From the NCBI GenBank assembly GCA_013178005.1, contig JABLXL010000017.1, forward strand, positions 1 to 64,000: a stretch of 64,000 nucleotides of DNA, read 5' to 3'. Positions 1,461-27,870 of this stretch are shown one piece after another (the first letter of the stretch is position 1; each line of letters starts with the position of its first letter). Source of the DNA: Actinomycetota bacterium. GTDB lineage: Bacteria > Actinomycetota > Geothermincolia > Geothermincolales > RBG-13-55-18. The notes under the pieces are model-generated. The model worked only from the letters and a program-made list of their open reading frames with translations, was not told where the DNA came from and did no database searches. The translations under genes and the position numbers were made by a program.

Positions 1461-2921
1461 TCAACGCGGCGAGGGCAGCTCGACCCTGAGGCCGCCCCCC
1501 ACCTCGATTTCGTAATAGGTGAGGCGGTTCAACTGGTTGGTGCCCTCGTAGATCTGGGTGACCTTGGCGTCCCGGTAGCACTTCTCGACCCAGCGCCTCT
1601 CCTCTCCGCCGTCGGTTCCCATGAGCTCCAGGGCCCGCGAGGCCACCGCCACCGCGTTGTCGGTGCAGGCGAATTTCGCCAGCGAGGCCAGGGCGAGGAG
1701 CCTGGTCATGTCGTCCTCGCTCACCAGCATCCGCAGCAGGCGCGCGGACATGGCCTTACCATGTCGCGAGTGGAGGAAAGACTGGTAGGGCCTGGAAATG
1801 CGCACTTCCCTGGGCAGGGCGAAAATGGCCTTCATCAACGGGTTGACCAGGAGTTTTCCGAAAACGGCGTCGCCTGCCAGGCTGTGGTTCAGGACCAGTC
1901 CCCGCGATTCCTGGATCGAGGCCGCCATGTCCGCCACCGCCATCTGGATGCGCGGCTCGTCGATGGGCCTGGAGCCGTTGCGGCGCGTCCTCGCCCAGGC
2001 CAGGAAATGGCGGCAGACGCCGCGCGCGATACCCGTTCCCACCGCGCCCACCGGGCCGCGCGAGGCGGCCATGATCATGAGAATGCCGGTGGACATCCCG
2101 TCCCCCTCGTAGCCCATGACGTTGGTGTCGGGGACGAAGACGTTCTCGAAGAGGACCTCGGCGGCGTGGCAGGCCCGTTGCCCCATCTTGCGTTCCACCC
2201 TGGGAACCGAAAAGCCCTCCATGTCCCGGTGCACCAGGAAGACGGTCCATGTCTCCAGGGGACGGTTGCGGTCCGTGGCGGCGCAGACGGTGAGGTATCT
2301 CGCCTCCTTACCACCCGATATGAAGCACTTGCGGCCGTTGAGGAGGTAGCCGCCCTTGACCTTTCTTGCCTCCATGCCGAGGCGGGCATGGGCGAGGAAA
2401 TGTGGCTCCTCCACGTCGGTTCCGGCGGAGGGCTCGGTTATGGCATAGGCCATTAGCACCGGCTCGCCTTTTTTCTCCCCCTCGAGCATCTCGTGCAGCA
2501 CGGTGTCCCAGTGGGGCATGCCGCCGGGAGTCAGCATGGGGGAGGCCCCCAGGCTGGTGGCGGCGATCATGTTCCCTATCCCCGCGCACGCCGAGCACAG
2601 CTCCTCGAAGGCCAGGGCTCCCGCGGTGAGCATGTATTTCCCCGCCAGCCCCCCAAGCACGGTGGGGATGACCAGGCTGAAGAGGCGGTACCTGCACGCC
2701 GAGCGGGCCAGGTCCCAGTCGAAGTAGTCGGGCTCCATCTCCACGCGTTCGTCGATCTCCAGGGCCTTGGGCTCCGCGTGCAGGCGGTTGAACTCCGCGC
2801 AGTTCTCGACGATACGCAGGATCTCGGCCACGCCGCCGGGATCGTGCTTGCGCATGCTCTCCAGGACCGGCACTTCCCGCAACAGCCGGAGGCTTACCTC
2901 GCCCAACGGTTCTTCCCGCAT
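1461..2921 (-). CDS. acyl-CoA dehydrogenase
   Basis: FAD-dependent acyl-CoA dehydrogenase of 486 aa, longer than the usual 380-400. It shows the FAD/substrate loop AYAITEPSAGTDVEEP, the middle beta-domain, and the C-terminal IYEGTNQ signature whose Glu is the expected catalytic base. The extra length is in an N-terminal helical extension of about 60 residues. ATG 2921 is preceded by GGGGGAAGGAAG. It would introduce the alpha-beta double bond in beta-oxidation, passing electrons to ETF, but no etfAB genes are in the window. The neighbouring OYE-type reductase on the same strand and the mutase/decarboxylase locus further right suggest a fatty or branched acyl-CoA substrate; this is inference. 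Confidence 0.92.
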   Translation of the reverse strand: MREEPLGEVSLRLLREVPVLESMRKHDPGGVAEILRIVENCAEFNRLHAEPKALEIDERVEMEPDYFDWDLARSACRYRLFSLVIPTVLGGLAGKYMLTAGALAFEELCSACAGIGNMIAATSLGASPMLTPGGMPHWDTVLHEMLEGEKKGEPVLMAYAITEPSAGTDVEEPHFLAHARLGMEARKVKGGYLLNGRKCFISGGKEARYLTVCAATDRNRPLETWTVFLVHRDMEGFSVPRVERKMGQRACHAAEVLFENVFVPDTNVMGYEGDGMSTGILMIMAASRGPVGAVGTGIARGVCRHFLAWARTRRNGSRPIDEPRIQMAVADMAASIQESRGLVLNHSLAGDAVFGKLLVNPLMKAIFALPREVRISRPYQSFLHSRHGKAMSARLLRMLVSEDDMTRLLALASLAKFACTDNAVAVASRALELMGTDGGEERRWVEKCYRDAKVTQIYEGTNQLNRLTYYEIEVGGGLRVELPSPR

Positions 2922-3572
2922 CTTCCTTCCCCCTGTCTAGGCGAATTGCTTGACCGTTATAAAACCTGTAGCCGGCCCTCGCCTCACCTTCGTTTCGTGG
3001 CGGAGATGTGAAACCGTTCCCCTGGGGCGGTCGACGGATAAGGCGAGGAGAGGGCCTGTTATTGCGCGTGGACCCGTTAAGGCAACATCCGGGTACGACG
3101 GGGTGGAATCCGTGATCCACAGGGCGCCGATCGATGTTGCCGCTCGGGGCATGCCATGTCTCCAAGACGCGCCGTGCGTGGAGAAACAGGAAAGCGGGAA
3201 GGGCGACGAGGCGCCTCCGTGTTCGCCTGCGGGAAACATCGCCGAAGAACCATCCCCCCTGTCGAACCCCTCCTGGGAGCTATTCTACCACAGGGAAATC
3301 GCGAAAAACCTTCCCCGATGGAAAGCGCCCGACAAGAGGTCGGGGTTTTCGGAATCCGCGGAGCTTTCTTGCCGCGACCTGTAAGGAGGTGTCTCATAGA
3401 GAGGAGATGAGGACCGGGCACGAGAGACGTTGGCTTCACGGCGGGCGGGGGTCGGGAATCGGGAAGCGGTGAAGGATGTAGCCGGTTTTACCGAGAATAG
3501 AATTAATGAGCGAATAAGGGCAAAAGGCCCATCTCCCCTTGTGGGGGGACCGTTACGGGGGAGGGGTTGCGT
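2922..3572. other. intergenic region, no gene seen
   Basis: About 650 bp between divergently oriented genes. Frames here have poor codon use and no ribosome site. The last bases before 3573 carry a G-rich ribosome site (GGGGGAGGGG) for the next gene. No tRNA, riboswitch or clear promoter was recognised. Confidence 0.5.
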
Positions 3573-4697
3573 ATGGTCGAGACCTGCACGGCGTGTGGCG
3601 TCCCCCTCATGGTTAGCAGGGAACTCAACTGGGAAGCCAACGGGGTCATCTCCCTGACCGCGTCTCCGCGCAACCGCATGGTGTTCTTCGAGTCCGAGAC
3701 CATCGACCACGTTTTCCGGGGCATCGAGGAACTTATCGGCGTGCCCATCGAGCGCATCGTCATAGAGAGCAGGAGCCGAGAGACCAGGCGATACATCGAG
3801 AGGGCCTTTCCGCCGGAGGTGCGCAGGATAATCGACGGCTCGGAGTCAGGCCTGGAAGGGCGCATGGCGAAGATGTCACCAGAGGAGCGCGAGACGCTGC
3901 TGGCCACCATGAGGGCCATCACCGGCAGCATTATCGACATCGCCAAAAATTACGGTTACGGCGAGCAGATATTGAGCGAGCTGTGGGAGCAGGGAGCTGA
4001 TTTCCCCTGGCGGGTGCAGCGAGTGCGCAATCCCTATTCGGTCCTTTTCTTCGTCGCGGACAACCTGGGCTCGGTGGAGGCTTTCGAGGGCATAGAGATG
4101 CAGGCGAGGTACGAGAAAACGGGCGAGGACACCTACCGTTCCGAGGTGTTTCCAGGGGAGCATGCGCTGGAGCTAAGGGAGCGACTCAAGCGCAGGCGAT
4201 ATGACTTCAAGCCCGGCGACGTTCACTACGAGCGCTGCCCGCAGTGCGGCATACCCATGGCGGTGGCCGGCCGCAAATGGGACGTCGAGGCGGGCACCAT
4301 CGTCGATCCGGGGACGGGGAGGAGGATGGCCATCTTCGGCCCCTTCTCGGCCGACGCCGTCTTCGACGACCTGGAATCGGAGTTGGGTGAGGCCATACCG
4401 GAGACGGTGATCGAGGCCACCCGGCGGTACATCAGGTCGGCCTGGAACACCGAGAACTGGAACCGCGACGGCTTGACTTTCCAGCAGATGATCGCCGTGC
4501 GTGGCCTGGGCTACCTGGCCCGCTTTGAAGGCGACCGGCATGGCCTGGAGATGCTGGTCCAGAACGCATGCCTGCACCTGCCCATGGTGGGGACGGTGCA
4601 GGCCCTGGTGGAGATGGCCTACCGGGTCGAAGCCTCGACCTGCGAGTGGGAACTCGCGGACGACGGGGACCTTTCCATCGCCGTGAAGGTGAAATAG
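3573..4697 (+). CDS. unknown protein with duplicated CxxC domain, tandem paralog 1
   Basis: Not a family I can name; about 374 aa. The protein contains two related units of roughly 75 residues. Each opens with CxxCG-x-P (CTACGVP near residue 5, CPQCGIP near 225) and continues with a W...G.I...RM stretch and an (I/L)EELIG..IE or LESELGEAIPE helix ending in an Arg/Tyr-rich segment. The final 45 residues (NACLHLPMVGTVQALVE then DDGDLSI) loosely recall the end of V4R/4VR sensor domains but lack their cysteines. ATG 3573 follows GGGGGAGGGG by six bases; TTG 3567 is possible. It is the first of two full paralogs and one fragment in tandem. The function is unknown; small-ligand or metal binding is only a guess from the CxxC pairs. 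Confidence 0.75.
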   Translation: MVETCTACGVPLMVSRELNWEANGVISLTASPRNRMVFFESETIDHVFRGIEELIGVPIERIVIESRSRETRRYIERAFPPEVRRIIDGSESGLEGRMAKMSPEERETLLATMRAITGSIIDIAKNYGYGEQILSELWEQGADFPWRVQRVRNPYSVLFFVADNLGSVEAFEGIEMQARYEKTGEDTYRSEVFPGEHALELRERLKRRRYDFKPGDVHYERCPQCGIPMAVAGRKWDVEAGTIVDPGTGRRMAIFGPFSADAVFDDLESELGEAIPETVIEATRRYIRSAWNTENWNRDGLTFQQMIAVRGLGYLARFEGDRHGLEMLVQNACLHLPMVGTVQALVEMAYRVEASTCEWELADDGDLSIAVKVK

Positions 4698-4858
4698 GAA
4701 AGACCGACCTTCACCCCAGCCTCAAGTGCATGGCCCGTAAAGGCGAAAATGGTAAGGAAGCTCGCGGACGACGGGGACCTTTCCATCGCCGTGAAGGTGA
4801 AATAGGAAAGACCGACCTTCACCCCAGCCTCAAGTGCATGGCCCGTAAAGGCGAAAAT
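4653..4858 (+). repeat. 98-bp tandem duplication of a gene 3' end
   Basis: Bases 4653-4750 and 4761-4858 are near-identical direct copies offset by 108 bp. The unit contains the last codons of the upstream gene (through its TAG) plus about 53 bp of downstream DNA. The second copy therefore carries an orphan gene tail with stop codon, lying between the two paralogs. Confidence 0.9.
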
Positions 4859-11292: not shown

Positions 11293-11699
11293 CGGCTTCT
11301 CCCATATCCGGAGTTTGCTATATTTGTAATGGAAAAGAGGGTTGATGTCAAGGAGCAAATGGCGATTTTAGTTTAGTAAAAGTGAACTTATACACCAGCC
11401 GTGGACGGAGGGGAAAAGTTCGAGGCTCTTGGGGCGGGCACACGAGAGACGGCCGTCCCTGCGAACATGGGAACAAGGGTTTGCTTGTCACGTTTTAAGG
11501 AGCGGTTGGAGCCATCCCGGTGAACATGGGAGTAAGGTTTAAGGAATTCACTTCCCATCCATTTCCATCGAGCCAACACGCTATCTTGGAAACAAGGCCA
11601 TGACGCCATTAGGTGAAAGGGGCGGCGCTCCGGCATCATGAGCATAGTGAAAGGCATAATGTATCTTTAACCAGTGGGTGTAGGAACGGGAAGGAAGGT
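11293..11699. other. intergenic region between divergent bioY and birA
   Basis: About 400 bp of somewhat lower GC DNA. It should contain promoters for both genes. I looked for the TTGTAAAC-type biotin operator half-sites and found only a weak TTGTAAT near 11322, not a convincing palindrome. Confidence 0.4.
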
Positions 11700-12476
11700 A
11701 TGCAGCACGTAAAACGTGGAGAGAGCGGTAGACGCTTCCCTCCCTGGGAAATAAAGGAATACGCGACCCTGGACTCCACCAACCTGGAGGCGAGGCGGCT
11801 GCTTGACGCCGGGGCCCGCGAGGGGTTGGTGGTGACGGCGCGGCACCAGACGGGGGGGCGGGGAAGGATGGGCCGCGGATGGTTCGACCTGCCCGGCAAG
11901 AGCCTCATGTTCAGCGCGGTGCTCTCGGGAGTGGGCGGCTTCGCCGCCGCCGCCATGGCCGCCCTGTCCGTGCGTTCTGCCGTGGTGGAGCTCGGGGGGA
12001 GGGGCCCCGACCTCAAGTGGCCCAACGACCTGGTTTATGGAAACAGGAAAGTGGGGGGAGTGCTATCCGAGTCGTGCACCGTTGGGGGAAAAGAGACGGT
12101 GATCGTGGGTTTGGGCTTGAACGTGGGGTACCTCCCGGGCGAGCTCGACATGGAGGCCAGGTTGACCCCCACCTCACTGCTGGTGGAGGAGGGGAGAACG
12201 TGGGACCTCGCGGAGCTCCTGAACGCATCGCTGCGCGGGTTGCGGGAGCGATTGGAAGCGGGAGGGGAGGCGTGGATGCAGGAGTACCGCGCCCACCTTG
12301 CCTACCTGGGAGAGAGGGTGACGGTGAACCCGCCCTTTGCGGTGGAGGGGCGACCGGGGAAGAGCGAGGAAGCGCTCTCGGGCATCATGCGCGGGGTGGA
12401 TGGAGACGGAAATCTTCTCCTGGAGGTGGGGGGGGAGCTGCTGCGCGTGGTGTCCGGAGACATGGCGGGGGGGTAA
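11700..12476 (+). CDS. birA: biotin--[carboxyl-carrier-protein] ligase, monofunctional type
   Basis: About 258 aa. The biotinyl-5'-AMP binding loop GGRGRMGRGW, the LKWPNDLVYGNRKVGG motif and the IVGLGLNV segment are intact, followed by the small C-terminal SH3-like domain. There is no N-terminal helix-turn-helix, so this is a ligase without repressor function. ATG 11700 is preceded by GGAAGGAAGGT; a longer in-frame reading from 11613 is not supported. It would biotinylate the carrier domain of the carboxylase B subunit encoded across the intergenic region. Confidence 0.92.
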   Translation: MQHVKRGESGRRFPPWEIKEYATLDSTNLEARRLLDAGAREGLVVTARHQTGGRGRMGRGWFDLPGKSLMFSAVLSGVGGFAAAAMAALSVRSAVVELGGRGPDLKWPNDLVYGNRKVGGVLSESCTVGGKETVIVGLGLNVGYLPGELDMEARLTPTSLLVEEGRTWDLAELLNASLRGLRERLEAGGEAWMQEYRAHLAYLGERVTVNPPFAVEGRPGKSEEALSGIMRGVDGDGNLLLEVGGELLRVVSGDMAGG

Positions 12477-12515
12477 ACCTGCGCTTCTCGACCCGGTTGC
12501 ATACCCGAACGAGGG

Positions 12516-12881
12516 GTCGTGTCTTGACTTTTTCATTCCGCCGCAGCGCAAGACAAACACCCAATGTCTCCCCGGAACAAAAAAGTCAAGACACGACCCC
12601 GGTTCATACCCGAACCTGTCTTGACTTTTTCATTCCGCCGCAGCGCAAGACAAACACCCAACGTCTCCCCGGAACAAAAAAGTCAAGACACGACCCCGGT
12701 TCATACCCGAACCTGTCTTGACTTTTTCATTCCGCCGCAGCGCAAGACAAACACCCAATGTCTCCCCGGAACAAAAAAGTCAAGACACGACCCGGGTCAA
12801 GACCCGGTTGCATACCCAAAAAGTCAAGACACGACCCGGGTCAAGACACGACCCGGGTCAAGACACGACCCGGGTCAAGAT
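12516..12881 (+). repeat. three 97-bp hairpin-forming repeats followed by 17-bp repeats
   Basis: Copies begin at 12521, 12618 and 12715 (period 97). Each unit has inverted arms, GTCGTGTCTTGACTTTTT on the left and AAAAAGTCAAGACACGAC on the right, around a loop of about 45 bp that differs by single bases between copies. After the third unit a 17-bp element (GTCAAGACACGACCCGG) is repeated about four times up to 12881. The arms resemble REP-type palindromes handled by IS200-like transposases in other genomes (from memory), but no transposase gene is adjacent. Confidence 0.85.
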
Positions 12882-12936
12882 ACAACCATGGTTTCACGCA
12901 GCTCCTCCGCATCCGTCGGTTGGACTACGGCTTCCA

Positions 12937-13284
12937 TCAGGACGAGGCGGAGGCCCTCTCCAGGCGGTTTATCTCGCGTTTCTTCTCCCGCACGTAGTCG
13001 CTTATGGCGTCCAGGTTGAGGCACTGGTTGAGAAAGGAAAGGTCCTTGAGGAGCTCACGAGCCTGGGACGCGTCCCCGCACTGTATGGCCGCCTCAATCC
13101 GGCGCGAGATGTCCCGCGCGGTGTTCTCAACCTCCTCCCTCATCTCCTGGCGGTCGCAGATGACGGGGTTACCGCAGCTCGGGCACGCGCGGAAAACGAG
13201 GGGACCGCAGCACATCACGTTCCCTATCACGCGGAATTCCTCGCCGTCGCCCTCGTGGCCGCAGCGATCGCATTTAATCATCAT
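12937..13284 (-). CDS. small zinc-ribbon protein with helical tail
   Basis: About 115 aa. The N-terminal half holds CDRCGHEG and CPSCGNPV CxxC pairs plus a CC in between, consistent with a zinc ribbon. The C-terminal half is charged and helical, possibly coiled (REEVENTARDISRRIEAAI onward). ATG 13284 has AAAGGAGGTGG seven bases upstream. It is the third zinc-ribbon gene in this cluster and the last gene downstream of the glycyl-radical operon on the same strand, separated by about 360 bp. An assembly or accessory role for the Fe-S/radical enzyme is a guess from position only. Confidence 0.75.
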   Translation of the reverse strand: MMIKCDRCGHEGDGEEFRVIGNVMCCGPLVFRACPSCGNPVICDRQEMREEVENTARDISRRIEAAIQCGDASQARELLKDLSFLNQCLNLDAISDYVREKKREINRLERASASS

Positions 13285-13648
13285 CCGTTCCACCTCCTTT
13301 CGCGCACGCCGGTGTCGCATCGACCCCACATGCAGGCAAGGAGTGCCCCGCCCGTGGCGGCTTCCCCGCGGCACCATCCAACGAGGCGCTGAAGGCTCAA
13401 AGCCACCGCGGTGGCGTGCTCTTGACGCGTGGCCGTTTTAACGTTCAAGCCTTTCCGGCCCTCAGGCGACACCTTGATACAGCCTCCATCCCGGTCGACG
13501 GGGACTGGGTTTTAGCGCTCAAGCCGTTCAAGCTATCAGGCGACCGTCTCCGTTCCCGCCCCGTGATTTTTCGCACGCGGCGGGAACGGATCCCTGCGCC
13601 GCGGCGCGCGCCTTCGGGCCGTGGAAGGCGCCACCGGCGCCCGACCCG

Positions 13649-13839: not shown

Positions 13840-14778
13840 TCAGCCTCCTATGGTGGCGATGATGCCTTTATCTTCCAGAACATCCAGCAGGTCGTCGACC
13901 TCGCTCACCGACAGGCTCGCGACGTCCCTGTACGGCCATTCCCGGCCCAGCCAGCGGTACTTGTCCTGGCACCAGTTGTGGAAGGGCAGCAGGTCCACCT
14001 GCAGAAGGGAGGGCCCCAAGCCGGCCAGGAACTCGGCCACCTTCTCCATGTGTTCCACCGAGTCGTTGAAGCCCGGGATCACTGGTATGCGCACGATGAC
14101 GCTCTCTCCCGCCTCCGCCAGCCTGCTCAGGTTGGCGAGGATGGGGGAGTTGCTGACCCCCGTGCGCAGGAGGTGCTGCTTGCCGCTCAAGCACTTGATG
14201 TCGTAGAGGAAGATGTCCACGAAAGGCCGCAGCGTCTCCAGCACCTCCCACTCGCAGAACCCGCTGGTGTCGAGGCAGGTGTGGATGCCTCTTTCCTTGG
14301 CGCCCTTCAGGAGCTCCAGAGTGAATTCGGGAAAGGCCGTGGGCTCGCCGCCGGTCACCGTCATGCCGCCCCCGGAGTTGAGGTAGAAGGGCATGTCCCT
14401 TTCCACCTCCGCCAGGACCTCATCGACGGTTCTCGGCTCTCCGACCTTCGCGAGGGCGCCGTACACGCATGCCTCGACGCAGGCCATGCAGAGGTCGCAG
14501 CGCGAGAGGTCTATTTTGTAATAATGGTCGTTTTCGTCCTCGGCGCCCAGGGCGATGGGGGGTTGGACGGCGCCCTTCTCGCACGCGGAAAAACACCTTC
14601 CGCACTGCCTGCACAACGACTGCTTCCAGTAGATCTCGGGGCCGAAGTCGATGCACTCCGGGTTGTGGCACCAGGCGCAGTTGAGCCGGCACCCCTTGAG
14701 GAAAACCGTGGTGCGAATGCCCGGCCCGTCGTTGATGGAATATCGCTGGATGTTGGTGACCAAAGCCACAGGTCCCAT
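13840..14778 (-). CDS. glycyl-radical enzyme activating enzyme (radical SAM)
   Basis: About 312 aa. The radical-SAM site is C-x3-C-x2-C in GCRLNCAWCHNPEC near residue 30. An inserted ferredoxin-like segment (CRQCGRCFSAC and CDLCMACVEAC) provides two further 4Fe-4S clusters, typical of BssD-type activases and unlike short PflA. TGGEP binds SAM. It abstracts hydrogen from the conserved glycine of its partner. ATG 14778 is chosen because the protein then starts MGPVALVTNIQRYSINDGPG as in the family; an upstream extension to 15030 is low-complexity and overlaps another gene. It sits between the two small-subunit genes on the same strand. Confidence 0.93.
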   Translation of the reverse strand: MGPVALVTNIQRYSINDGPGIRTTVFLKGCRLNCAWCHNPECIDFGPEIYWKQSLCRQCGRCFSACEKGAVQPPIALGAEDENDHYYKIDLSRCDLCMACVEACVYGALAKVGEPRTVDEVLAEVERDMPFYLNSGGGMTVTGGEPTAFPEFTLELLKGAKERGIHTCLDTSGFCEWEVLETLRPFVDIFLYDIKCLSGKQHLLRTGVSNSPILANLSRLAEAGESVIVRIPVIPGFNDSVEHMEKVAEFLAGLGPSLLQVDLLPFHNWCQDKYRWLGREWPYRDVASLSVSEVDDLLDVLEDKGIIATIGG

Positions 14779-14864
14779 TTCCGCACCCCCGCTCTCCGCT
14801 TCCCGGCGGGACGGCGATAGCCGCCCCGCCGCACGCGGCGTTCCGCGTTCCGCGTCCATGTCGC

Positions 14865-15038
14865 CTAGGTCTTCTGCAGGGATTTCTCCGCCCGCTCCTC
14901 GGCGAGCTCGTTGACCACCACCCACCCGTAGCATTTCGGACATTCCCGGTAGGCGGTCTCGGCGTCGAGGGTGGTGTTGTAAAGGTAGCGGAATTCGGAC
15001 TTCACGCCCTCGTATCCGCAATTTTCGCATTTGACCAT
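14865..15038 (-). CDS. small zinc-ribbon protein, 57 aa
   Basis: Reads MVKCENCGYEGVKSEFRY, then CPKCYGWVVV, then a charged helix ending at TAG 14865. Two CxxC pairs suggest a single zinc ribbon. AGGAGGT lies eight bases before ATG 15038, overlapping the stop codon of the preceding gene, so the two are probably cotranslated. It is related in layout to the zinc ribbons at 15043-15270 and 12937-13284. Its role is unknown; all three flank the activase and small subunits of the radical enzyme. Confidence 0.75.
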   Translation of the reverse strand: MVKCENCGYEGVKSEFRYLYNTTLDAETAYRECPKCYGWVVVNELAEERAEKSLQKT

Positions 15039-15042
15039 ATCC

Positions 15043-15270
15043 TCATACCTCCTCTTTTTCCCCTTTGCCCCGTGCGTCCCATCTCGTCTCCGCGCTCCTC
15101 AGCCGGGAGGAAGCGGGGAGCGGGTTGCGCGCCTCCACGCCTTCCACGATGACCAGCTCGCCGCAGGAGGGGCACCGCCGCAAGGTGGCGGGCCCCGTCC
15201 CGCCGGCTTGGGCCACGTAAGCGAATTCCGCGAGGCATCCCCGGCATCCGCAGTAGCCGCAGGTGATCAT
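15043..15270 (-). CDS. small zinc-ribbon protein, 75 aa
   Basis: Starts MITCGYCGCRGCLAEFAYV, with a second pair CPSCGELVIVEG around residue 33, then a basic/charged tail. GGGGAGAG precedes ATG 15270. It lies 26 bp downstream of the BssB-like subunit gene and four bases before the next zinc-ribbon gene, consistent with one transcript. No known family name. Metal binding is inferred from two CxxC pairs with an extra Cys. Confidence 0.72.
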   Translation of the reverse strand: MITCGYCGCRGCLAEFAYVAQAGGTGPATLRRCPSCGELVIVEGVEARNPLPASSRLRSAETRWDARGKGEKEEV

Positions 15271-15296
15271 CTCTCCCCTCGCTCCTCTTCCAAGGC

Positions 15297-15596
15297 TTAT
15301 TTCTCGCGCAGCTGACGCTGGGGGCGGAACTCGGGATCCCACATGAACTCGCTGGTGTCCGTGCGCATGCGCTCTATTTCCAGGAAATGGGGACAGCCCG
15401 CGGCGTCGGTGTTGTCGAAGACCACCTTGTTCTTCTCCCCGTCCTTTATCGCCGTGCAGAAGCCGTCCCCCGCCGCCGAGGCCGAGTTCTGCCGGAAGTT
15501 CCTGCACATGGCGCAGGCCTTCTCGGGCATCTCCCGGCGTCCCTTGGTGATGGCGCCCTGGATCCACTGCTGGCGCAACTGCTCCCAATCGGTCAT
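15297..15596 (-). CDS. X-succinate synthase small subunit (BssB/beta-like), 99 aa
   Basis: Four cysteines at residues 28, 31, 47 and 68 (CxxC-x15-C-x20-C) repeat the spacing of the 51-aa subunit, within CAMCRNFRQN and GFCTAIKDGE. An N-terminal WEQLRQQWIQGAI helix and a C-terminal extension make it longer. This matches the second Fe-S subunit of benzylsuccinate/alkylsuccinate synthase, which sits on the catalytic subunit and limits access to the active site. ATG 15596 has AAGGGGGT upstream. It is the gene immediately downstream of the catalytic subunit, with a 54-bp gap. Confidence 0.83.
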   Translation of the reverse strand: MTDWEQLRQQWIQGAITKGRREMPEKACAMCRNFRQNSASAAGDGFCTAIKDGEKNKVVFDNTDAAGCPHFLEIERMRTDTSEFMWDPEFRPQRQLREK

Positions 15597-15650
15597 CGCT
15601 CTACCCCCTTCTCGAGCATCTCCTGCCGGAACGGAAGCGCTCCCGCGCCT

Positions 15651-18140
15651 TCATGCGCCCAGTTCCTGCACGTTGCGGGCGATGATGGTGTCCTGGGTCT
15701 TCTTGTTGAGGTCCACGAAATGGGCGCTGTAACCGGCGATGCGCACGATGAGCTCGGGATACTTCTCGGGCTCCTTCTGGGCCGCCTTCAGGGTCTCGTT
15801 GTCCACCATGTTGAACTGCACGTGGTCGATGCCCAGGTCCGCCCAGGTCTTGATGTAGGAGTACCAGACATGGAAACCCTTCTCGCCCGCCAGCTGCTGG
15901 GGCGAGAGCCTCTGGTTGAGCAGGGTGGCGCGCACGTCGCCGATGTGGTCGATCTTGGCCACCGAGCGAAGCACCGCCGTGGGCCCCTTCTTGTCCATCC
16001 CCGCTCCCGGTGAGCAGCCGCCGTCGTAGAGGGTGTCGCCCAGCCGGCGCCCGTTGGGCAACGCCCACACCTTGGTGGCGTTGGTCACGTAGGCGGCGAT
16101 GTTCTCCGGCAGGGGAGGCCATGGGTTGCCCGTGGGGTCCTTGATCTCCCAGGAGTGCCTGGCCACGTCCCGGTGACAGCGCACGTGGATCTGGTCCACG
16201 TAGTCGTCGTCGTTGCCCCACTTGGGCGCGCGCACGAAGTCCATGCGCATCTCCTCGTAGCCTTCCCAGTTGGCCTTCAGGGCCTCGATGAGCTGGGGCA
16301 TGGTGTACTTCTTCTCGTCGAAGACCAGCTTCTTCACCGCGGCCAGGCTGTCTCCCGTCTCCATCCAGGCAAAGAAGGTTATCCAGGAGTTGCCGCGTTC
16401 GCTGGGGTGGGAGGAATCGACGCCCAGCTCCACGCAGCGCTCGTAGAGCCCGGAGAGCAGGGGACGGGGGTCCAGGTACTGCGCCATGTATCGCCCGCCG
16501 TTGGTCAGCTTGACCAGGGTGTCCATCATCCACTTGATCTGGGTATACCAGGCCTGGTAGAGCTCCTCGAAGGACTCGAACCTGGAGGCGTCCCCGGTAT
16601 GGGGGCCGAACTGCATCTGGAGGGTGTTGTCGTAGCCGTCGAAGAGCGCGTACTCGATGGCCTTGGCGGCGATGATGGTGGCGTTGGCCATGCGGAAGGG
16701 CTGGCAGCCCAGCTTGGTGTCCGGGCAGGGGGACATGCAGGCCTGGTGCACCCAGCGGCGCGCCTCCCTCAAGGGGTGCTTGTGCCAGTGCATGGCGTTG
16801 GTTATGAGCACGGGGTCGTTGCGCATGGAAGGGTATCCCAGCCCCTGGCGGATGCACTCGAAGACCTGCCGCAGGGTGGACATCCTCGCGCCCGGGTGGT
16901 AGCGGAAGGCGAAGGTGGGGTTGGCCACCCTCACCAGCCTCGCCGCCTCCAGCAGGCAGTCGGTCATGTCGTTGCAGGCGTCCGTCCCGTCCTCGTTCAC
17001 CCCTCCGATGGTCCATACCCAGGTGCCGGTGATCCCCTGCAGGGTGTCGCGCGCCAGCATGAGCCAGAACCACCCCACTTCGTAGCAGCGGATGAGGAAC
17101 TCCCCGGTCAGGTCCAATGCCTCCTCGCGGGTGAGGACCTTGTCCTGGTTGACGTCCTTCTCGTAGAAAGGTCCGTGCCAGTAATCGGGGCGGGCCGGCC
17201 ATGCGCCCTCGCAGGCCTCGTACCGGCAGGCGATCTGGATGAAGTGGTCGAACTGCAGCGACTCGTGCAGGTGCTCGGGGGGACGCGCCGGGACCTTCTC
17301 GCACACCTCGGCGATGCGCAGGAGCTCCTCCTTGCGCTTGGGGTCGGTCTCGAAGTTCTCGGCGATTATCTTGGCCAGCCGGCTGTAGCGCCGCGCCCAG
17401 CGGATCACCGCCTCCAGCACCACCTTCATGGACTTCCATACGTCCAGCTTCTCGTAATAGGGAAGCTCGTCGGGGTCGGGCACCTTGTCGTAGATGTGCC
17501 TCTCGGCCTCGGCGATCCTTTCGTCGATCTCGGCCAGGATGCCCTCCAACCCGAGGCGGAACATGTAGTCCCACTGCTTGGTGGCGTAGCCTATGCGCGA
17601 GATGGGAAGGCCCCATCCGATGACCCCGGTGAGGAGCTTAACGATCTCCTCGGGTGGCACCAGGTTGAAGACCTTGGCCCCGGCGCAGATGGGGTTCCAG
17701 TAGTCGCACAGCTCCCTGATGAGGGCCAGGCTCTCCGCCTCCGGCTCCGGGATCACCGTGCGGTCGTTGTAGAGGTCCTCGTTCAGGAGGAAGAGGATCT
17801 CCGGGTGCCACACGATGGTGTGAGGCCGCGACCCCAAATACCCCATGATCTGGGCGTTGTCCTGGATGAAGATGGTAATGTTGTCGAACACGTTCGCCAG
17901 CGCCTTGGCGTAGCGCATCCTCAGGCTGTCCGCCTCGTTGGCCTTGAAGGCCTCGGTGAAGAGGACGGCCCTCTCCAGGTCCACCTTCACTCCCGGGTTG
18001 TAGCCCGAACCCTTGGCCCCCTTCTTCCATACCGCCTTGCGCAGGTAATCGAGGCGCTTGGAGCGTTTATGTTCCGCCCACCACCACCATTGACCGCTCT
18101 TTTCGATCTCCTCGATGGTCCTTGTCTCTACCGCTGACAT
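15651..18140 (-). CDS. glycyl-radical enzyme, X-succinate synthase type (benzyl-/alkylsuccinate synthase-like catalytic subunit)
   Basis: Catalytic subunit of 829 aa, the normal size. The C-terminal radical loop reads VRIAGYSAHFVDL with the radical glycine at about residue 803. The thiyl cysteine is C468 in HQACMSPCPDTKLG; the MSPCP-x-TK context and the following QPFRMANAT are features I associate with BssA/AssA fumarate-adding enzymes, not with pyruvate formate-lyase or glycerol dehydratase. The Glu two residues after Cys found in arylacetate decarboxylases is absent. Two Fe-S small subunits and a ferredoxin-type activase follow on the same strand, as in bss/ass operons. ATG 18140 (AGGGGGTAGG upstream) is preferred to GTG 18143. 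The reaction is probably radical addition of a hydrocarbon to fumarate; toluene, alkane or another substrate cannot be distinguished here. Confidence 0.9.
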   Translation of the reverse strand: MSAVETRTIEEIEKSGQWWWWAEHKRSKRLDYLRKAVWKKGAKGSGYNPGVKVDLERAVLFTEAFKANEADSLRMRYAKALANVFDNITIFIQDNAQIMGYLGSRPHTIVWHPEILFLLNEDLYNDRTVIPEPEAESLALIRELCDYWNPICAGAKVFNLVPPEEIVKLLTGVIGWGLPISRIGYATKQWDYMFRLGLEGILAEIDERIAEAERHIYDKVPDPDELPYYEKLDVWKSMKVVLEAVIRWARRYSRLAKIIAENFETDPKRKEELLRIAEVCEKVPARPPEHLHESLQFDHFIQIACRYEACEGAWPARPDYWHGPFYEKDVNQDKVLTREEALDLTGEFLIRCYEVGWFWLMLARDTLQGITGTWVWTIGGVNEDGTDACNDMTDCLLEAARLVRVANPTFAFRYHPGARMSTLRQVFECIRQGLGYPSMRNDPVLITNAMHWHKHPLREARRWVHQACMSPCPDTKLGCQPFRMANATIIAAKAIEYALFDGYDNTLQMQFGPHTGDASRFESFEELYQAWYTQIKWMMDTLVKLTNGGRYMAQYLDPRPLLSGLYERCVELGVDSSHPSERGNSWITFFAWMETGDSLAAVKKLVFDEKKYTMPQLIEALKANWEGYEEMRMDFVRAPKWGNDDDYVDQIHVRCHRDVARHSWEIKDPTGNPWPPLPENIAAYVTNATKVWALPNGRRLGDTLYDGGCSPGAGMDKKGPTAVLRSVAKIDHIGDVRATLLNQRLSPQQLAGEKGFHVWYSYIKTWADLGIDHVQFNMVDNETLKAAQKEPEKYPELIVRIAGYSAHFVDLNKKTQDTIIARNVQELGA

Positions 18141-18872
18141 CACCTACCCCCTTTGCGAAATACTCCTGAAGTCCCCGGATTTTGCTCTCATGAACCGAAA
18201 ACCATGGGAATCCGAACGCCTTATGACCATCCCCCTCTCGACCAACCCCCTTAGCTTTTTCCCTCCGGTCAGCATACGTGCCGCGTGGCCGGGGAGTTAC
18301 CGAAGCCACCTTTTCAAGCCCTCGTTCCCTTCCGCCGGCACGTCCGCCGTCGCCCTGGAACGGCGAGCTGCGTGTTTCCCGCGGCCAACTTGGCCACCCG
18401 CAGCGGCGGAGCTGCGCTTTCCCGGTCGTCTACCTTTAACGCGCGACGGGAAAGAGGCCTTCCGCCACGCTGCGTATGGTGAAAGTCTGGGCTTTCCGTG
18501 GTTGTGGCATATGGGTTGCGGTGTTCCCTGGAGCGAACCTGGCTATGAGGAGGGCGCGATGTTTGCGAATGATATTTCTTGCGTTATTCAGTTCTGCGAA
18601 TGTGCCTTCCAGACTTAACTTTTTTCACTATACTTTTAGTAACCAGTTAATAATATGGCTACGTATTGCCTGCTAGATTGCCGGATATGATATTGCTAAT
18701 TTTAGAAAAGGTGAACCTATTTTGCAAGGGGAATTTTCGGCGATTCCATATGCCGACAAAGAGCTTTCTTCCCGGCGCCGGATGGCGGGCCGCCGCACCA
18801 TCCCCCGATCTTTGACAGCCCCGACCGCTTTCCATAATATCTTTGCTGTGTGCGTATGAAATGGGGCTCCTT
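18141..18872. other. divergent intergenic region upstream of the glycyl-radical operon
   Basis: About 730 bp, with an AT-rich segment around 18600-18700. It must contain the operon promoter (minus strand) and that of the HEPN-MNT pair (plus strand). I cannot point to a specific promoter or operator with confidence, and no gene is supported. Confidence 0.4.
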
Positions 18873-20878: not shown

Positions 20879-22408
20879 TCAAGCGTACTGTTTGCGCAGC
20901 TCTTTCTTGAGGATCTTCCCGGTGAGCGTCCTGGGTATGGTCTCCACGTGGGTTATCTTCTTGGGGATCTTGTAGCGCGCAAGCTTGCCATCGCAAAAGG
21001 CCTCAAGTTCCTCAAGGGTGACGGGGTCGCCCGGGTTTTCCGGCAGGATGAGGGCGTGGCCCACCTCGCCCCACTTCTCGTCCGTCATTCCTATTACCGC
21101 GACGTCCCTTATCTTGGGGTGCTCCATGAGCACCTTCTCCACCTCGGCGGGATAGATGTTCTCGCCGCCGCTGATGATCATGTCCTTCTTGCGGTCAACC
21201 ACGTAGATATATCCGTCCTCGTCCACGGTGGCCAGGTCGCCGTAATGGAACCAGCCGTCCTTCATGGCCTCCGCCGTCTCCTCGGGCATGTTCCAGTACT
21301 CCAGCATCACGTAGGGGCCGCGGGAGCAGATCTCCCCTACCTCACCCGAGCCTGGCTTTACCTCGGTGCCGTCCTCCTTCAGGACCTTGACCTCGGCGTG
21401 GAACATGGGAATGCCCGCGCTGCCAACCTTTTCCATGTTGGAGCAGGAGAGCACGATGGAGGTCTCGGTGCACCCGAAGACCTGGATGAGCAGGGGGACC
21501 TTCATCTTCTCCACGATGCGGTCCAGCAGCTCCCTGGAGGCGGGCGCGCCGCCGATGCCCACGCCTTTCAGGGACCCGAGGTCGTACTTGTCGAAGTCCG
21601 GCACGTCCAGCATCATCTGGAGCATGGTGGGCACGGCGCCGAAATGGGTGACCTTGTGCTCGGAGATGATGCGCAGCGCCTCCTCGGGATTCCAGAACTT
21701 CTGCAGGATTATGGTGCCGCCGGCGTAGAAGGTGGGCATGGTGATGATGTTGAGCCCCCCGGAGTGGAAGAGGGGTATGGCCACCAGGGACACGGCGTCC
21801 AGGTCGAAGAGCAGCTCCAGGGCGTCGTTGAAGGTGTTCCAGAAGGTCTTGCGGTGGGGAAGGACGGCGCCCTTGGCCCTCCCCGTGGTCCCGGAGGTGT
21901 ACATGATGAGCTGCGGATCCTCCATGTCGGGCGGCTCCGGGACGTGCGGCTCGTCCTCGCTGCGCCCCTGCAGCCATTCCTCGTATGGCTGGGCGAAATC
22001 CGGGACCATGTCGCCAACCGCCGCCACCACGGGCATAGGGGCCTTGTAGAGGTTGAGCAGCTCGCCCATGGTGCCGGCGAACTCCGAGTGGAAGAAGAGC
22101 GCGCGCGTCTCGGTGTCCTCGAAGATGTCCTTGAGCTCGGCCGGGGTGAGGCGGAAGTTCAAGGGTATGAAGATCAGCCCCAGCTTGGCGCACGCGAAGT
22201 ATATCTCCATGAACTCGGGACAGTTGAAGAACATCCCCGCCACCCGGTCTTGTTTGCGCAGGCCCGCCGCGAGCAGCCCGTCGGCCGCTTGGTTGACCCT
22301 GCGGTTGAACTCCCTGTAGGTGAGGGTCCTATCCCCGTAGATGAAGGCCGTCTTGTCCCCGGTGAGGGGGAACAGGGCCCGCTTCGTCGCCCAGTCGCCA
22401 ACGTTCAT
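20879..22408 (-). CDS. AMP-dependent acyl-CoA ligase
   Basis: 509 aa ANL-family ligase. The phosphate loop MYTSGTTGRAKGA, the YGDLATVDEDGYIYVVDRKKD hinge and the C-terminal Lys in LTGKILKKEL are all present. It activates a carboxylic acid to its CoA thioester with ATP. ATG 22408 begins the conserved N-terminus; its upstream region contains a duplicated copy of the same 5' end (see repeat). Given neighbours, it is the candidate to activate an alkyl- or benzylsuccinate-type product (an AssK-like role), but family membership alone would also fit medium- or long-chain fatty acids. Confidence 0.9.
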   Translation of the reverse strand: MNVGDWATKRALFPLTGDKTAFIYGDRTLTYREFNRRVNQAADGLLAAGLRKQDRVAGMFFNCPEFMEIYFACAKLGLIFIPLNFRLTPAELKDIFEDTETRALFFHSEFAGTMGELLNLYKAPMPVVAAVGDMVPDFAQPYEEWLQGRSEDEPHVPEPPDMEDPQLIMYTSGTTGRAKGAVLPHRKTFWNTFNDALELLFDLDAVSLVAIPLFHSGGLNIITMPTFYAGGTIILQKFWNPEEALRIISEHKVTHFGAVPTMLQMMLDVPDFDKYDLGSLKGVGIGGAPASRELLDRIVEKMKVPLLIQVFGCTETSIVLSCSNMEKVGSAGIPMFHAEVKVLKEDGTEVKPGSGEVGEICSRGPYVMLEYWNMPEETAEAMKDGWFHYGDLATVDEDGYIYVVDRKKDMIISGGENIYPAEVEKVLMEHPKIRDVAVIGMTDEKWGEVGHALILPENPGDPVTLEELEAFCDGKLARYKIPKKITHVETIPRTLTGKILKKELRKQYA

Positions 22409-22632
22409 GCAAACACACCCCCTACTTTAACCGGCAAACCAGGATCTGGAATTCCTTGGTTCTTGGTTGACCCTGCGGTTGAACTCCCTGTAGGTGAGGG
22501 TCCTGCCCCGTAGATGAAGGCCGTCTTGTCCCCGGTGAGGGGGAACAGGGCCCGCTTCGTCGCCCAGTCGCCAACGTTCATGCAAACACACCCCCTACTT
22601 TTTAGCCGGCAAACCAGGACCTGGAATTCCTC
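22289..22632 (-). repeat. ~170-bp tandem duplication of the ligase gene 5' end
   Basis: Bases 22289-22457 and 22463-22632 are imperfect direct copies offset by 174 bp, covering the ribosome site, ATG and about 40 codons of the ligase. The outer copy has a one-base deletion (CCTATCCCCG versus CCTGCCCCG) and several substitutions, so it is not an assembly echo. Confidence 0.88.
22405..22581 (-). CDS. short leader ORF made from the duplicated ligase start
   Basis: Starts at ATG 22581 with the same ribosome-site context as the ligase, repeats its first residues (MNVGDWATKRALFPLTGDKT), then shifts frame at the one-base deletion. It ends at a TGA that overlaps the ligase ATG as ATGA. About 58 codons. 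Probably a non-functional by-product, but its perfect overlap would couple ligase translation to the leader. Confidence 0.45.
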   Translation of the reverse strand: MNVGDWATKRALFPLTGDKTAFIYGAGPSPTGSSTAGSTKNQGIPDPGLPVKVGGVFA

Positions 22633-23121
22633 GGTTTCCCCAGCGATACCGCGCCGCGCGGACGTTGAAGAGGTGTCTCGAATCTTGCTGCGAACTTGCG
22701 GCATCGGCGAGATCGCGCAGCCCACGTGATGCATTATGCAATATCGTTCACCATATGTAAAGTAAAGAAGTGCCCGTGAGCTAAATATAGCATGTGGCAG
22801 GCGAAGTGGTATGATTCCGAAAAAGCGCATGAATAAAGGAAAAGCGCGCATACCGTGCCGCCTTTACACCCGTATTGAATGCTGTTAGTATCTTTGGTAT
22901 CCGTGAACGGCTGTCACGGCCGCCGTGAGCGGGGGCGAGGATGCGTGCTTCAGGGCGGAAACCCACGCTTGGTGCGGGACATGAGGTCTCGTCTGAATCG
23001 ACGCCTCTCCCGGGTTCGCCCGGGGACGGAGAGGCAACCGCCAGGGGCGCCCTGGAAGCGCAACTCCAGTAAGAGCGGGGATAGAGGCTGTCTTCCATGA
23101 CGGTAGAGCGAGGAGGGGGAG

Positions 23122-25223: not shown

Positions 25224-25602
25224 TCATTCCCGTATCGTCTCGCAACGCAGCAGCTCCAACGGTATCCCCGTCTTCCGCTCTATGTCGAGGTACGGCCTGC
25301 CCAGCAGGTCCCCGGCCCATTTCCTCGGTCGATACATCTAGGTTCGAAAGTTCGATTCCCTTTTATTCCCATATCGTCTCGCAACGCAGCAGCTCCACCG
25401 GTATCCCCGTCTTCCGCTCTATGTCGAGGTACGGCCTGCCCAGCAGGTCCCTGGCCCAGCCCCCCAGGTGACGACTCCGGGTAGGGTTTCCCGCTCATTC
25501 CCAAATCGTCTCGCAATGCAACAGCTCCACCGGTATCCCCGCCTTCCGCTCTATGTCGAGGTACGGCCTGCCAAGCAGGTCCCTTGCCCAGCCCCCCAGG
25601 TG
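25224..25602 (-). repeat. three direct copies of a gene 3' end, each with stop codon
   Basis: Copies lie at 25495-25602 (the true end of the radical-SAM gene), 25363-25470 and 25224-25320, about 108 bp each. All three can be read in frame as WAxDLLGRPYLDIERK..GIP.ELL.CETI.E followed by a stop (TGA, TAA and TGA). They differ by scattered mostly conservative substitutions, indicating age or selection rather than assembly error. Confidence 0.88.
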
Positions 25603-27870
25603 AAACGGGGAGGACGGGACGAGGACGAGGTCCGGCCTCTCCCTGCCAGATGCGGCCTTTTCCAGTATATAGGAGACGAAATCCTCCACCACCAGAAGGT
25701 CTCCCAGTATGATGTTGCCCCCGAAATAGCGGTTCTCCGGCACCCCCAGGGCAAGCGTGCAGCCATCCGGCAGCGAAAGGGGCCGCTCTCGCAGGAGCTG
25801 TTCCAGGGTGGGCCTCACCAGCGCCGAGGTGAGCAGGAGCGGGCGCCGCGCGCCCCGTGCGTGGATCACGGCCTGGACCTCGTCCAGGTAACGCGGCCTG
25901 AAGCCCGAGCCCATGAAAACCGCTCCCAGGTGCGCGGCAACCCGCGGGTCGTAGGGGTAGGCATACTCGCGGGCGTCGCCGGCCAGCTCGAGTTCCTCGT
26001 CCCTGCGTCGCACCCTTATCGAGAACTCGCCCGCGCTCTGAGCAAGGGACAAGAGGTCCCTTGCCTGGGGGCGGCAGCTCACCGGCGTGCCGTTGACCGC
26101 CGTGACCAGGTCCCCCACCGAAAGCCCGGCGCGAGCCGCGGGGGATCCGGGCACTGTCCCAATGACCTCGGCCCGGTTCTTGTCCCGCCTGGTAAGGTTT
26201 TCCTCGTACATGGCCGGGCTCACGAAGACGGGGCAGGAGACCTCGCGGCGCATATCCTGGGCCTCCCTGACCACCTCCGGCCAGACGGACGCGGTGTCGA
26301 AGGGCTCGGCAGGGGAGTGAAAGCGAGAGAAGCCCGGCAGGTTGACCTGCACCATGCTCGCCCCCGACGCCTCCGCGTGCCGCACCGTGGAGCGCAGGTC
26401 GTAAAGCATCTCCTCCAGCGAAGGCAAAGGCCAGGCGACGATGGTCACCGCGAAGGGTATTCCCGCCTCGGCCAGTCGGGGCAGCGCCCTTATCGCCCTC
26501 ACCGGTTCCGGGTCTCCCATGAGCATGGCGCGCCGGAGCGGCGAGGAGCTGTTGAGGGAGACGTCGAGGAACACCGGGGAGAGATCGGCAAGGGCGGCGA
26601 TCGTCTCCCCGTCGATGGCGCCTCCGTTGGTGGAGAAGCGCAGGGGCGCGTCGGTGCGCGCGCGTATCTCGCGCAGCACACATAGGGCGCGGGGGTGGGC
26701 GAGCGGCTCGCGGGGGCTGCCGAAGCTGGGGAAGAGGCCGGTTCCACCCCCGGCGTTGTAGAGCTTGAGCCGGGCGGAAAGCTCCCTCGATTCGTCGTCC
26801 AGGCTTCGCGGCGCTTGGCGCAGGGTGCGGGGCGCTCCCCGGTTGTAGCAGAACACGCAGTCGAACTGGCAGCGGCTCGCGGCATGCTGGATCACGTCCG
26901 ACGGCGTGGCGGCGTGCGGACCCACCCAGTCGTCGAGGTCGCGCAGGCGGAAGCCGTCCGGCCTGACCGGCTTTCCCCCGCGCTCCAGCTCCACCACGGA
27001 GAGGAGGCTCGCGAGTTGCCTTGCTATGAACTCCACGCGAGGCTCGTACAGGGAGGCGTTTGCCAGATCGCGGTACCCGCACGACCCCCTGCCCTCGTCT
27101 TCCGCCGCGGGCGACGGGACATCCAGGGCAGGGCTGGTTCCCTCGCCCTTCCCGCCGAGCTCACCCCGCTCGCCGTGGGTTCCGTCTCCACCCGGCTCGT
27201 ACCCGCGCTCGTTCCGCAAGGATTCATCCCGGTGCGCGTCGGCAGTCCCCGATTGAACTGCCGCCACGTCCTTTCCATTCCGGGCGGCGTCGTTCCCGGT
27301 TGGGCTGCTTGCGATTGCCAGGCGGGCGGCGTCGAGTCCCGGATCCGTAAGGCCGAATGCCGTGAAGGGCGTTTTTGGAAACAGCTCGTGTGATTTGCTC
27401 TCCGCCAGGAAGCGGAAGGAGTCCACGGCCACGTCCTCGCCCTCCTTTTGTGGAACCGCGACGTCGAGGATGTTGCGGATCTGCCAGCGCATCATCTCCG
27501 CCAGGCGGCCGGGGCCGGGCGGAGCGTTCCCGGGGAGGGCGGGGAGAGGGTAGCGGAAAACGCAGTCCGCCTCGCCCTTTTCATCGTGACCACCCGCGCC
27601 GTTGGCGTGGCCGCTTTCCCGGCCCCGCTCCGCGAGGAGCTCGCCTGTCTCGTCGGCCGGAAGCGAACCCTCATGGAGGAGAAAACCCGGCCCGACCACG
27701 CCGTAGGGATAGCCGATGGCGGGGCACGGTTCCCTGTTTACCTGACCGAGCCCGGTGTCCTCTCCCCCGCCGCGCGCGCGCCCGGGGGTTTTCGACCCCT
27801 CTCGGGATGAAGCGCGCTCCCCGGTGGGGAACGGGGTTGCGCCGAGATCAATATCCCTGGTTTTCTCCAT
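25495..27870 (-). CDS. radical SAM protein with C-terminal PDZ and DUF512-like domain
   Basis: About 791 aa. Residues 1-270 are a low-complexity, Gly/Glu-rich N-terminal region with islands of conserved-looking sequence. The radical-SAM site is SRCQFDCVFCYNRG (C-x3-C-x2-C near residue 336), with the TIM barrel extending to about 560. A PDZ domain follows (VIGTVPGSPAARAGLSVGD, about 568-625), then a C-terminal domain resembling the end of DUF512 proteins (GDLLVVEDFV, LVLVPSSPF). ATG 27870 or GTG 27876 both fit GGGAGG upstream. DUF512 proteins usually place PDZ first, so the order here is reversed. Position between the two mutase subunits hints at maturation or repair of the mutase, but this is speculative. 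Confidence 0.8.
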   Translation of the reverse strand: MEKTRDIDLGATPFPTGERASSREGSKTPGRARGGGEDTGLGQVNREPCPAIGYPYGVVGPGFLLHEGSLPADETGELLAERGRESGHANGAGGHDEKGEADCVFRYPLPALPGNAPPGPGRLAEMMRWQIRNILDVAVPQKEGEDVAVDSFRFLAESKSHELFPKTPFTAFGLTDPGLDAARLAIASSPTGNDAARNGKDVAAVQSGTADAHRDESLRNERGYEPGGDGTHGERGELGGKGEGTSPALDVPSPAAEDEGRGSCGYRDLANASLYEPRVEFIARQLASLLSVVELERGGKPVRPDGFRLRDLDDWVGPHAATPSDVIQHAASRCQFDCVFCYNRGAPRTLRQAPRSLDDESRELSARLKLYNAGGGTGLFPSFGSPREPLAHPRALCVLREIRARTDAPLRFSTNGGAIDGETIAALADLSPVFLDVSLNSSSPLRRAMLMGDPEPVRAIRALPRLAEAGIPFAVTIVAWPLPSLEEMLYDLRSTVRHAEASGASMVQVNLPGFSRFHSPAEPFDTASVWPEVVREAQDMRREVSCPVFVSPAMYEENLTRRDKNRAEVIGTVPGSPAARAGLSVGDLVTAVNGTPVSCRPQARDLLSLAQSAGEFSIRVRRRDEELELAGDAREYAYPYDPRVAAHLGAVFMGSGFRPRYLDEVQAVIHARGARRPLLLTSALVRPTLEQLLRERPLSLPDGCTLALGVPENRYFGGNIILGDLLVVEDFVSYILEKAASGRERPDLVLVPSSPFHLGGWARDLLGRPYLDIERKAGIPVELLHCETIWE

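Follow-up and report, generated by a model that had tools for sequence, protein, structure and literature searches.

What is the array of hairpin repeats that lies downstream of birA in this Actinomycetota genome, and what put it there? The window, a stretch of 64,000 nucleotides (positions 1 to 64,000 of contig JABLXL010000017.1), holds the array at 12514-12888, and the original prediction read it as REP/RAYT-type mobile DNA between birA and a glycyl-radical-enzyme operon. The upstream neighbour is indeed birA, encoding a biotin--protein ligase (ligase domain; 11613-12476, plus strand; TIGR00121, 117.6 bits), but on the other side a 146-codon ORF (12937-13377, minus strand), convergent with birA, intervenes and separates the array from the operon. 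This ORF encodes a small protein with CxxC pairs; it has a DNA match at this position in the same-genus genomes and no NCBIfam match. Our analysis makes it highly likely that the array consists of clustered non-autonomous mobile doublets of the TIRYT class, each MITE/REPIN-like with two inverted ends and a short loop, and the family has very probably been spread by a single-strand-cutting transposase.

The operon itself is worth a brief description. Its glycyl radical enzyme (15651-18143, minus strand) has as its best solved relative MasD, a (1-methylalkyl)succinate synthase (9o8u; 1111 bits over 822 residues), and scores far lower against benzylsuccinate synthase (569 bits). Its neighbours are a radical-SAM activase and a small Cys-containing ORF (13840-15030 and 15297-15596, both minus strand). 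Of 14 same-family genomes, 8 match the stretch 13840-15600 strongly at the DNA level. Judged by these relationships, the operon looks like one for fumarate-adding alkane activation.

Architecture of the array

The array consists of three 97-bp hairpin units, a number that could be an assembly effect since near-identical tandem units may be miscounted in this short-read assembly of 98 contigs, followed by 3.4 copies of a 17-bp repeat composed of the right arm plus GG. Tandem Repeats Finder reports the units at 12520-12797 (period 97, 2.9 copies, 98% matches) and the tail at 12823-12880 (period 17, 3.4 copies, 100% matches). A repeat search of the window places the 97-bp copies at 12520-12616, 12617-12713 and 12714-12810, differing from one another at 1, 8 and 9 positions, which confirms the three near-identical units of the original prediction. 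By repeat search and folding, unit 1 (12513-12600) is a complete inverted-repeat doublet and the only one with full 28-nt arms (12513-12540 and 12573-12600; 93% complementary, 32 nt between them). Unit 2 (12617-12697, right arm 12670-12697) and unit 3 (12714-12793, right arm 12767-12793) are cut short at the outer end of the left arm, so that their arms measure 21 nt. All features of the array are given on the plus strand.

Both edges carry partial copies. The array begins with the remnant of an earlier unit (12489-12511), made up of a right-arm end (CGACCC) and the spacer GGTTGCATACCCGAACG, which recurs in other arrays, for example C16/L044. At the other edge the proposed switch from whole units to arm repeats holds in that the tail is real and made from an arm, but the tail does not adjoin unit 3: a bridge (12794-12817), consisting of a shortened 17-mer (GGGTCAAGACCC) and the spacer GGTTGCATACCC and found also in L044, comes between them together with a truncated right arm (AAAAAGTCAAGACACGACCC; 12818-12837) recovered by the repeat and arm-match searches. 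The satellite GTCAAGACACGACCCGG (12823-12880) ends in a degenerate last copy, GTCAAGATACAACCA (12874-12888), which was found by the arm-match search.

The array did not arise by chance, since the window contains 9 matches to the arm when as many as 3 mismatches are allowed (shuffle mean 1.87; 0 of 100 shuffles reach 9) and the secondary-structure prediction gives unit 1 a DNA folding z of -9.35. The other strand of unit 1 folds with z = -8.84 and the tail with z = -5.11, two successive 17-mers forming a 10-bp stem, GACCCGGGTC, with a 7-nt loop; the predicted RNA hairpins are also strong (z -9.00 and -8.64). The window holds other tandem duplications, at 4649-4858 (108 x 2), 22288-22636 (173 x 2) and 25224-25603 (132 x 2.8), which by inspection are unlike the hairpin array.

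The doublets form a dispersed family

The original prediction called for further copies and for an IS200-like REP transposase elsewhere in the genome, and both a dispersed family and a Y1 transposase with near-matching ends are present. A 15-nt arm sequence, allowing one mismatch, matches the 3.6-Mb genome 124 times and its reversed pattern 0 times, and a search with one unit recovers 72 units, whole or partial, spread over 22 contigs (tallied from the match list); these are lower bounds, as the genome is in 98 contigs and several of the arrays are found at the ends of contigs (C22, C30, C42, C65, C72 and C93). Copies occur as singles, dimers and groups. In the stretches retrieved, the units follow a fixed plan, with left arm GGGGTCGTRTCTT(T/G)ACTTTTTCATTCCGCCG, a loop and right arm CCCGGAACAAAAAAGTCAAGAYACGACCC, 68-70 bp from start to start, and a spacer containing CATACCCG precedes the next unit. 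The two arms pair with each other: one position varies between A and G, and there left and right match in 46 of 56 units (Fisher 3.2e-7, a value that overstates independence, related units being counted separately). A constant stem mismatch (A against C in arm reading) is found in 42 of the 56.

A Y1 transposase gene with closely matching ends

Profile searches find two Y1_Tnp genes in the genome, C61 and C45. The C61 protein scores 38.8 bits against Y1_Tnp, contains the HUH motif NHYHL and the sequence YIVLNPVR, and has a C-terminal HTH_23 match (residues 246-279; E 1.1e-4) whose 22.3 bits fall just below the Pfam cut-off of 24.6; in a PDB search it had 0 matches up to E 0.1. Its gene is bracketed by 36-nt inverted repeats, ATGGGG[CT]CGTATCTTCACTTTTTCCTCGCTTTGCTT, which score 33 against 9-11 in 5 shuffles. 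The outer 22 nt of this end agree at 21 of 22 positions with the genome's usual left arm, GGGGTCGTATCTTTACTTTTTC, and at 20 of 22 with unit 1 of the window, and the two differ in their inner part. Because none of the transposases found in the assembly carries the doublet's inner part (CATTCCGCCG..CCCGGAAC) on its ends, C61 is a candidate partner only, and mobilisation of the doublets by the C61 enzyme is what we infer from the shared outer ends.

The C61 end recurs nearly whole in a second dispersed family (AAGCAAAGCGAGGAAAAATTCAAGATACGACCCCAT); this contributes 72 arms in the fetched stretches, which were chosen for repeat content and give no census of the kind that the whole-genome searches do. 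At one locus (L119, C38, about 2460-4190) the second family forms three doublets of about 275 bp with ends of the C61-transposase type. The C45 gene (L032 / G000:C45:30236-30556) has a different bracketing repeat (GGCCTAGGGGTCAAGGCTGGCC...; GGCCTAGGGGTCAAGGCTGGCCATCGGCCTAAGG), three copies of which lie on one side. Of 18 other proteins compared with C61, the closest homologue comes from the same genus (G002, 66% identity), and its flanks contain GGGGTC(A/G)TATCTTC repeats.

Distribution among relatives

Among the 117 other genomes, all species representatives, the arm pattern of the window is absent from 116 and present at a single site in one (G117). A search with the unit through the 30 other genomes of the class returned one copy, a decayed doublet with 72% identity in G006; this copy (L115 / G006:C4:5857-5944) belongs to another genus of the family, in a genome with no Y1_Tnp match. 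Both same-genus genomes, G001 and G002, lack an array between birA and the next gene, and the intergenic DNA there is too diverged to define an exact empty site or target duplication. An exact 19-nt match also occurs once in each of two Clostridia contigs; both matches lie in one similar stretch that looks like coding DNA, the second arm is missing, and they were put down to chance and rejected as copies.

The design of the element recurs across the class. Transposase genes of relatives are bracketed by GGGGTCAGGTCTT ends, and many of these genomes have dispersed doublets with the same ends. A sister motif, AAGACCTGACCCC, occurs in 27 of 59 genomes in up to 104 copies (control, at most 1 match per strand), and Y1_Tnp is present in 16 of the 18 genomes with at least 4 copies versus 11 of the 41 others (Fisher P 1.1e-5, kinship ignored); no Y1_Tnp match was obtained in G004 and G025, which carry 13 and 4 copies of the motif. 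A doublet pattern in which the outer 13 nt were fixed is found in 8 of 31 genomes of the class and 16 of 396 of the phylum, the reversed control giving 0. The inner stem of these doublets varies by genome and remains self-complementary. In the six genomes that allowed the comparison, the transposase end and the genome's own doublets have identical inner 10 nt (10/10) in G012, G007, G029 and G023 (in the last at the right end only, the left differing), and agree at 8/10 in G005 and 6/10 in G001, where the fetched transposase ends mismatch the doublets. The clade presents a clear natural series in which the 13-nt ends are conserved, while the inner stem is particular to each genome and usually matches the ends of the transposase resident there.

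Bases immediately outside the relatives' doublets (L145, L148, L173, L178, L198 and others) pair with one another over at least 3 positions in 10 of 61 cases versus 1.7 expected (P 7.6e-6), a count that omits N-containing doublets (L133, L143; 12 of 63 with them) and repeat copies of one site. Such pairing could reflect either insertion at palindromes or later palindrome extension.

Origin of the one-sided tail

The tail is a property of the right end. Within the fetched stretches the 17-mer, with up to 3 mismatches, follows 14 of 66 right arms versus 0 of 61 left arms (P 6.5e-5); one of the 66 (L039, 11557) is probably a chance match, and 5 of the 71 arms first classed as right had been omitted for a missing inner GGAA (3 tail copies and 2 variant arms). 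One omitted variant arm (L043, 27374) has a tail with 3 mismatches, and a count that keeps it gives 15 of 69. Tails follow 11 of 33 terminal right arms versus 3 of 33 internal ones, although on inspection 7 right arms scored as terminal precede a truncated left arm, so that the true contrast is nearer 11 of 26 versus 3 of 40. Tails are present in 13 fetched loci besides the window's own, in support of the predicted origin of the satellite from one arm, namely the right, and none of the 72 arms of the second family has one. In G027, of another genus in the class, ends of 20 to 51 bp are reiterated outside the doublets.

The simplest reading is that the tail arose by slippage at the base of the hairpin. 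Alternatively, the transposase itself could have made it, re-adding right ends through one-ended or aborted strand transfer in place of replication slippage. The strict restriction to right arms would fit such a process, as would the partial ends reiterated outside the G027 doublets (L135, L137, L138, L140, L142), with flanks that differ after each reiterated copy at L135. Among the 61 doublets of relatives, an extra end lies within 70 nt at 7 right-hand and 4 left-hand ends, the sides being arbitrary there; the relatives thus show left-end reiterations too. Moreover, the majority of tail copies repeat one another exactly and in the same direction, with a few bases shared where they join, a pattern for which slippage suffices, and we regard a transposase-made tail as unlikely. 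Less likely still is a TIRYT-driven element in which the transposase itself reiterates the right end as a satellite and insertions favour, or create, palindromes, as the pairing of bases outside the relatives' doublets might suggest. If true, this would point to single-strand transposition at hairpin centres and one-ended strand transfer, for which the available text of the literature compared has no description.

Rival identities: host function and canonical REP

The array might instead be a functional structure that acts in the gap separating birA from the convergent next operon, as a terminator, an insulator or a stabiliser of mRNA, and was copied for its usefulness; insulation of transcription had also been raised in the original prediction. 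The strength of the RNA hairpins and the convergent genes around this array would suit such a role, as would the finding that 0 of 27 array sites overlap a called gene. A consensus search, by contrast, found 0 terminator-like or promoter-like sites at the array, and array orientations are the usual mix: 5 of the 27 sites are at contig edges, and the 22 with flanking genes divide into 15 codirectional, 4 convergent and 3 divergent pairs, resembling the 57/14/14 of all gene pairs there (both from a crude codon-usage gene caller), with no enrichment between convergent genes (4 of 22). With no consensus sites and no orientation bias, identity as a terminator or insulator was dropped, and so was a known RNA family, Rfam giving no match at gathering score (best, mir-2058, 26.1 bits against a cut-off of 90). 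As the same-genus relatives also do without the array at the birA interval, we consider a copied functional structure extremely unlikely; a host function is not needed to explain the array and is unsupported.

A closer rival is a canonical REP/REPIN family of a group 2/3 RAYT. Here too the inverted doublet forms one hairpin in ordered tandem clusters, and REPINs, in the available text of Bertels and Rainey 2011 (PMC3116915), are likewise marked by doublets that form hairpins, clustering in tandem, a location between genes and a RAYT-like gene. Both of the genome's own Y1 proteins match NCBIfam REP_Tyr_transpos, though under its cut-off (65.0 and 51.2 versus 80 bits). A canonical REP was nevertheless rejected, as the arm GGGGTCGTGTCTTGACTTTTT has no GTAG-like tag beside a palindrome and no palindrome of its own, with at most 3 bp of self-pairing (GTC..GAC). 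In addition, C61 has the C-terminal HTH of a subclass near which, as far as the available text goes, Quentin et al. found no REP-like sequences (PMC6006769). A canonical REPIN is therefore very unlikely, and the REP/RAYT assignment stands only in the wide sense, for DNA that is mobile and RAYT-like.

DISCUSSION

The case for mobile doublets rests on the dispersed copies, their near absence in relatives and the absence of an array from the orthologous interval in G001 and G002, the two same-genus genomes, together with an HTH-tailed Y1 (HUH) transposase that shares 20-21 of the outer 22 nt and the recurrence of gene plus dispersed doublets across the class. We propose that the C61 transposase, or a sister enzyme that was lost or is missing from the assembly, would recognise the terminal 13-22 nt and the hairpin on single-stranded DNA, and that the Y1 enzyme would excise doublets in single-stranded form and insert them into intergenic DNA. 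Tandem arrays may then grow later by slippage or recombination between the spacer repeats and near-identical units, and the 17-bp tail by slipped-strand replication at the right end, possibly helped by the self-complementary CCCGGG junction through which consecutive 17-mers can form 10-bp hairpins. That the array has been caught expanding, as first suggested, is plausible. One doublet type has reached about 72 units in one genome while the same-genus genomes have none, and the one-sided satellite makes the growth of REP-like arrays directly testable.

The family fits the TIRYT/TIRtron class better than the GTAG-tagged REPs, because it has long terminal inverted repeats, no GTAG tag and at most 3 bp of arm self-pairing. 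In the available text of Di Nocera et al. 2013 (PMC3733652), which defines TIRYTs and TIRtrons, a RAYT-like Y1 transposase is flanked by long terminal inverted repeats, and the same TIRs are dispersed as singles, dimers and clusters, as they are here; PMC6006769, in its accessible sections, links TIRYTs and TIRtrons to subclass 2.1 with a C-terminal HTH. The published TIRs share GGGGWSAS in many, not all, cases (PMC3733652, same text), and the relatives' transposase ends, GGGGTCAG / GGGGTCAC, fit it. The ends in our genome (GGGGTCGT / GGGGCCGT) differ from this motif, GGGGTCGT being one base off. The inner part of our doublet also differs from the ends of the genome's own transposase, and regular tandem arrays with a 17-bp satellite at the right end are not described in that text.

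Other systems share parts of this organisation. Literature searches returned nothing joining RAYT, REP and actinobacteria, and no text match to the arm sequences. The REPINs of RAYTs likewise pair two inverted ends about 70 bp apart in one hairpin and form ordered clusters of tandem near-identical units (PMC3116915, available text), but our arms lack the REP mini-palindrome and tag and belong with another transposase subclass. Similarly, the E. coli BIMEs are intergenic, linker-separated inverted pairs, often in consecutive tandem copies (PMC8266576, as far as its available text goes), whereas the present repeats have no REP features (GTAG tag, own palindrome). Closest in combining a miniature element with a minisatellite is the intergenic, species-restricted BrickBuilt MITE of Porphyromonas gingivalis (23-nt minisatellite; PMC4596501, available text); its satellite is internal, set between leader and tail, whereas ours is external and derives from the right terminal arm. 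Set beside these systems, the family is a known but little-studied kind of mobile repeat, and its one-sided tail is unusual.
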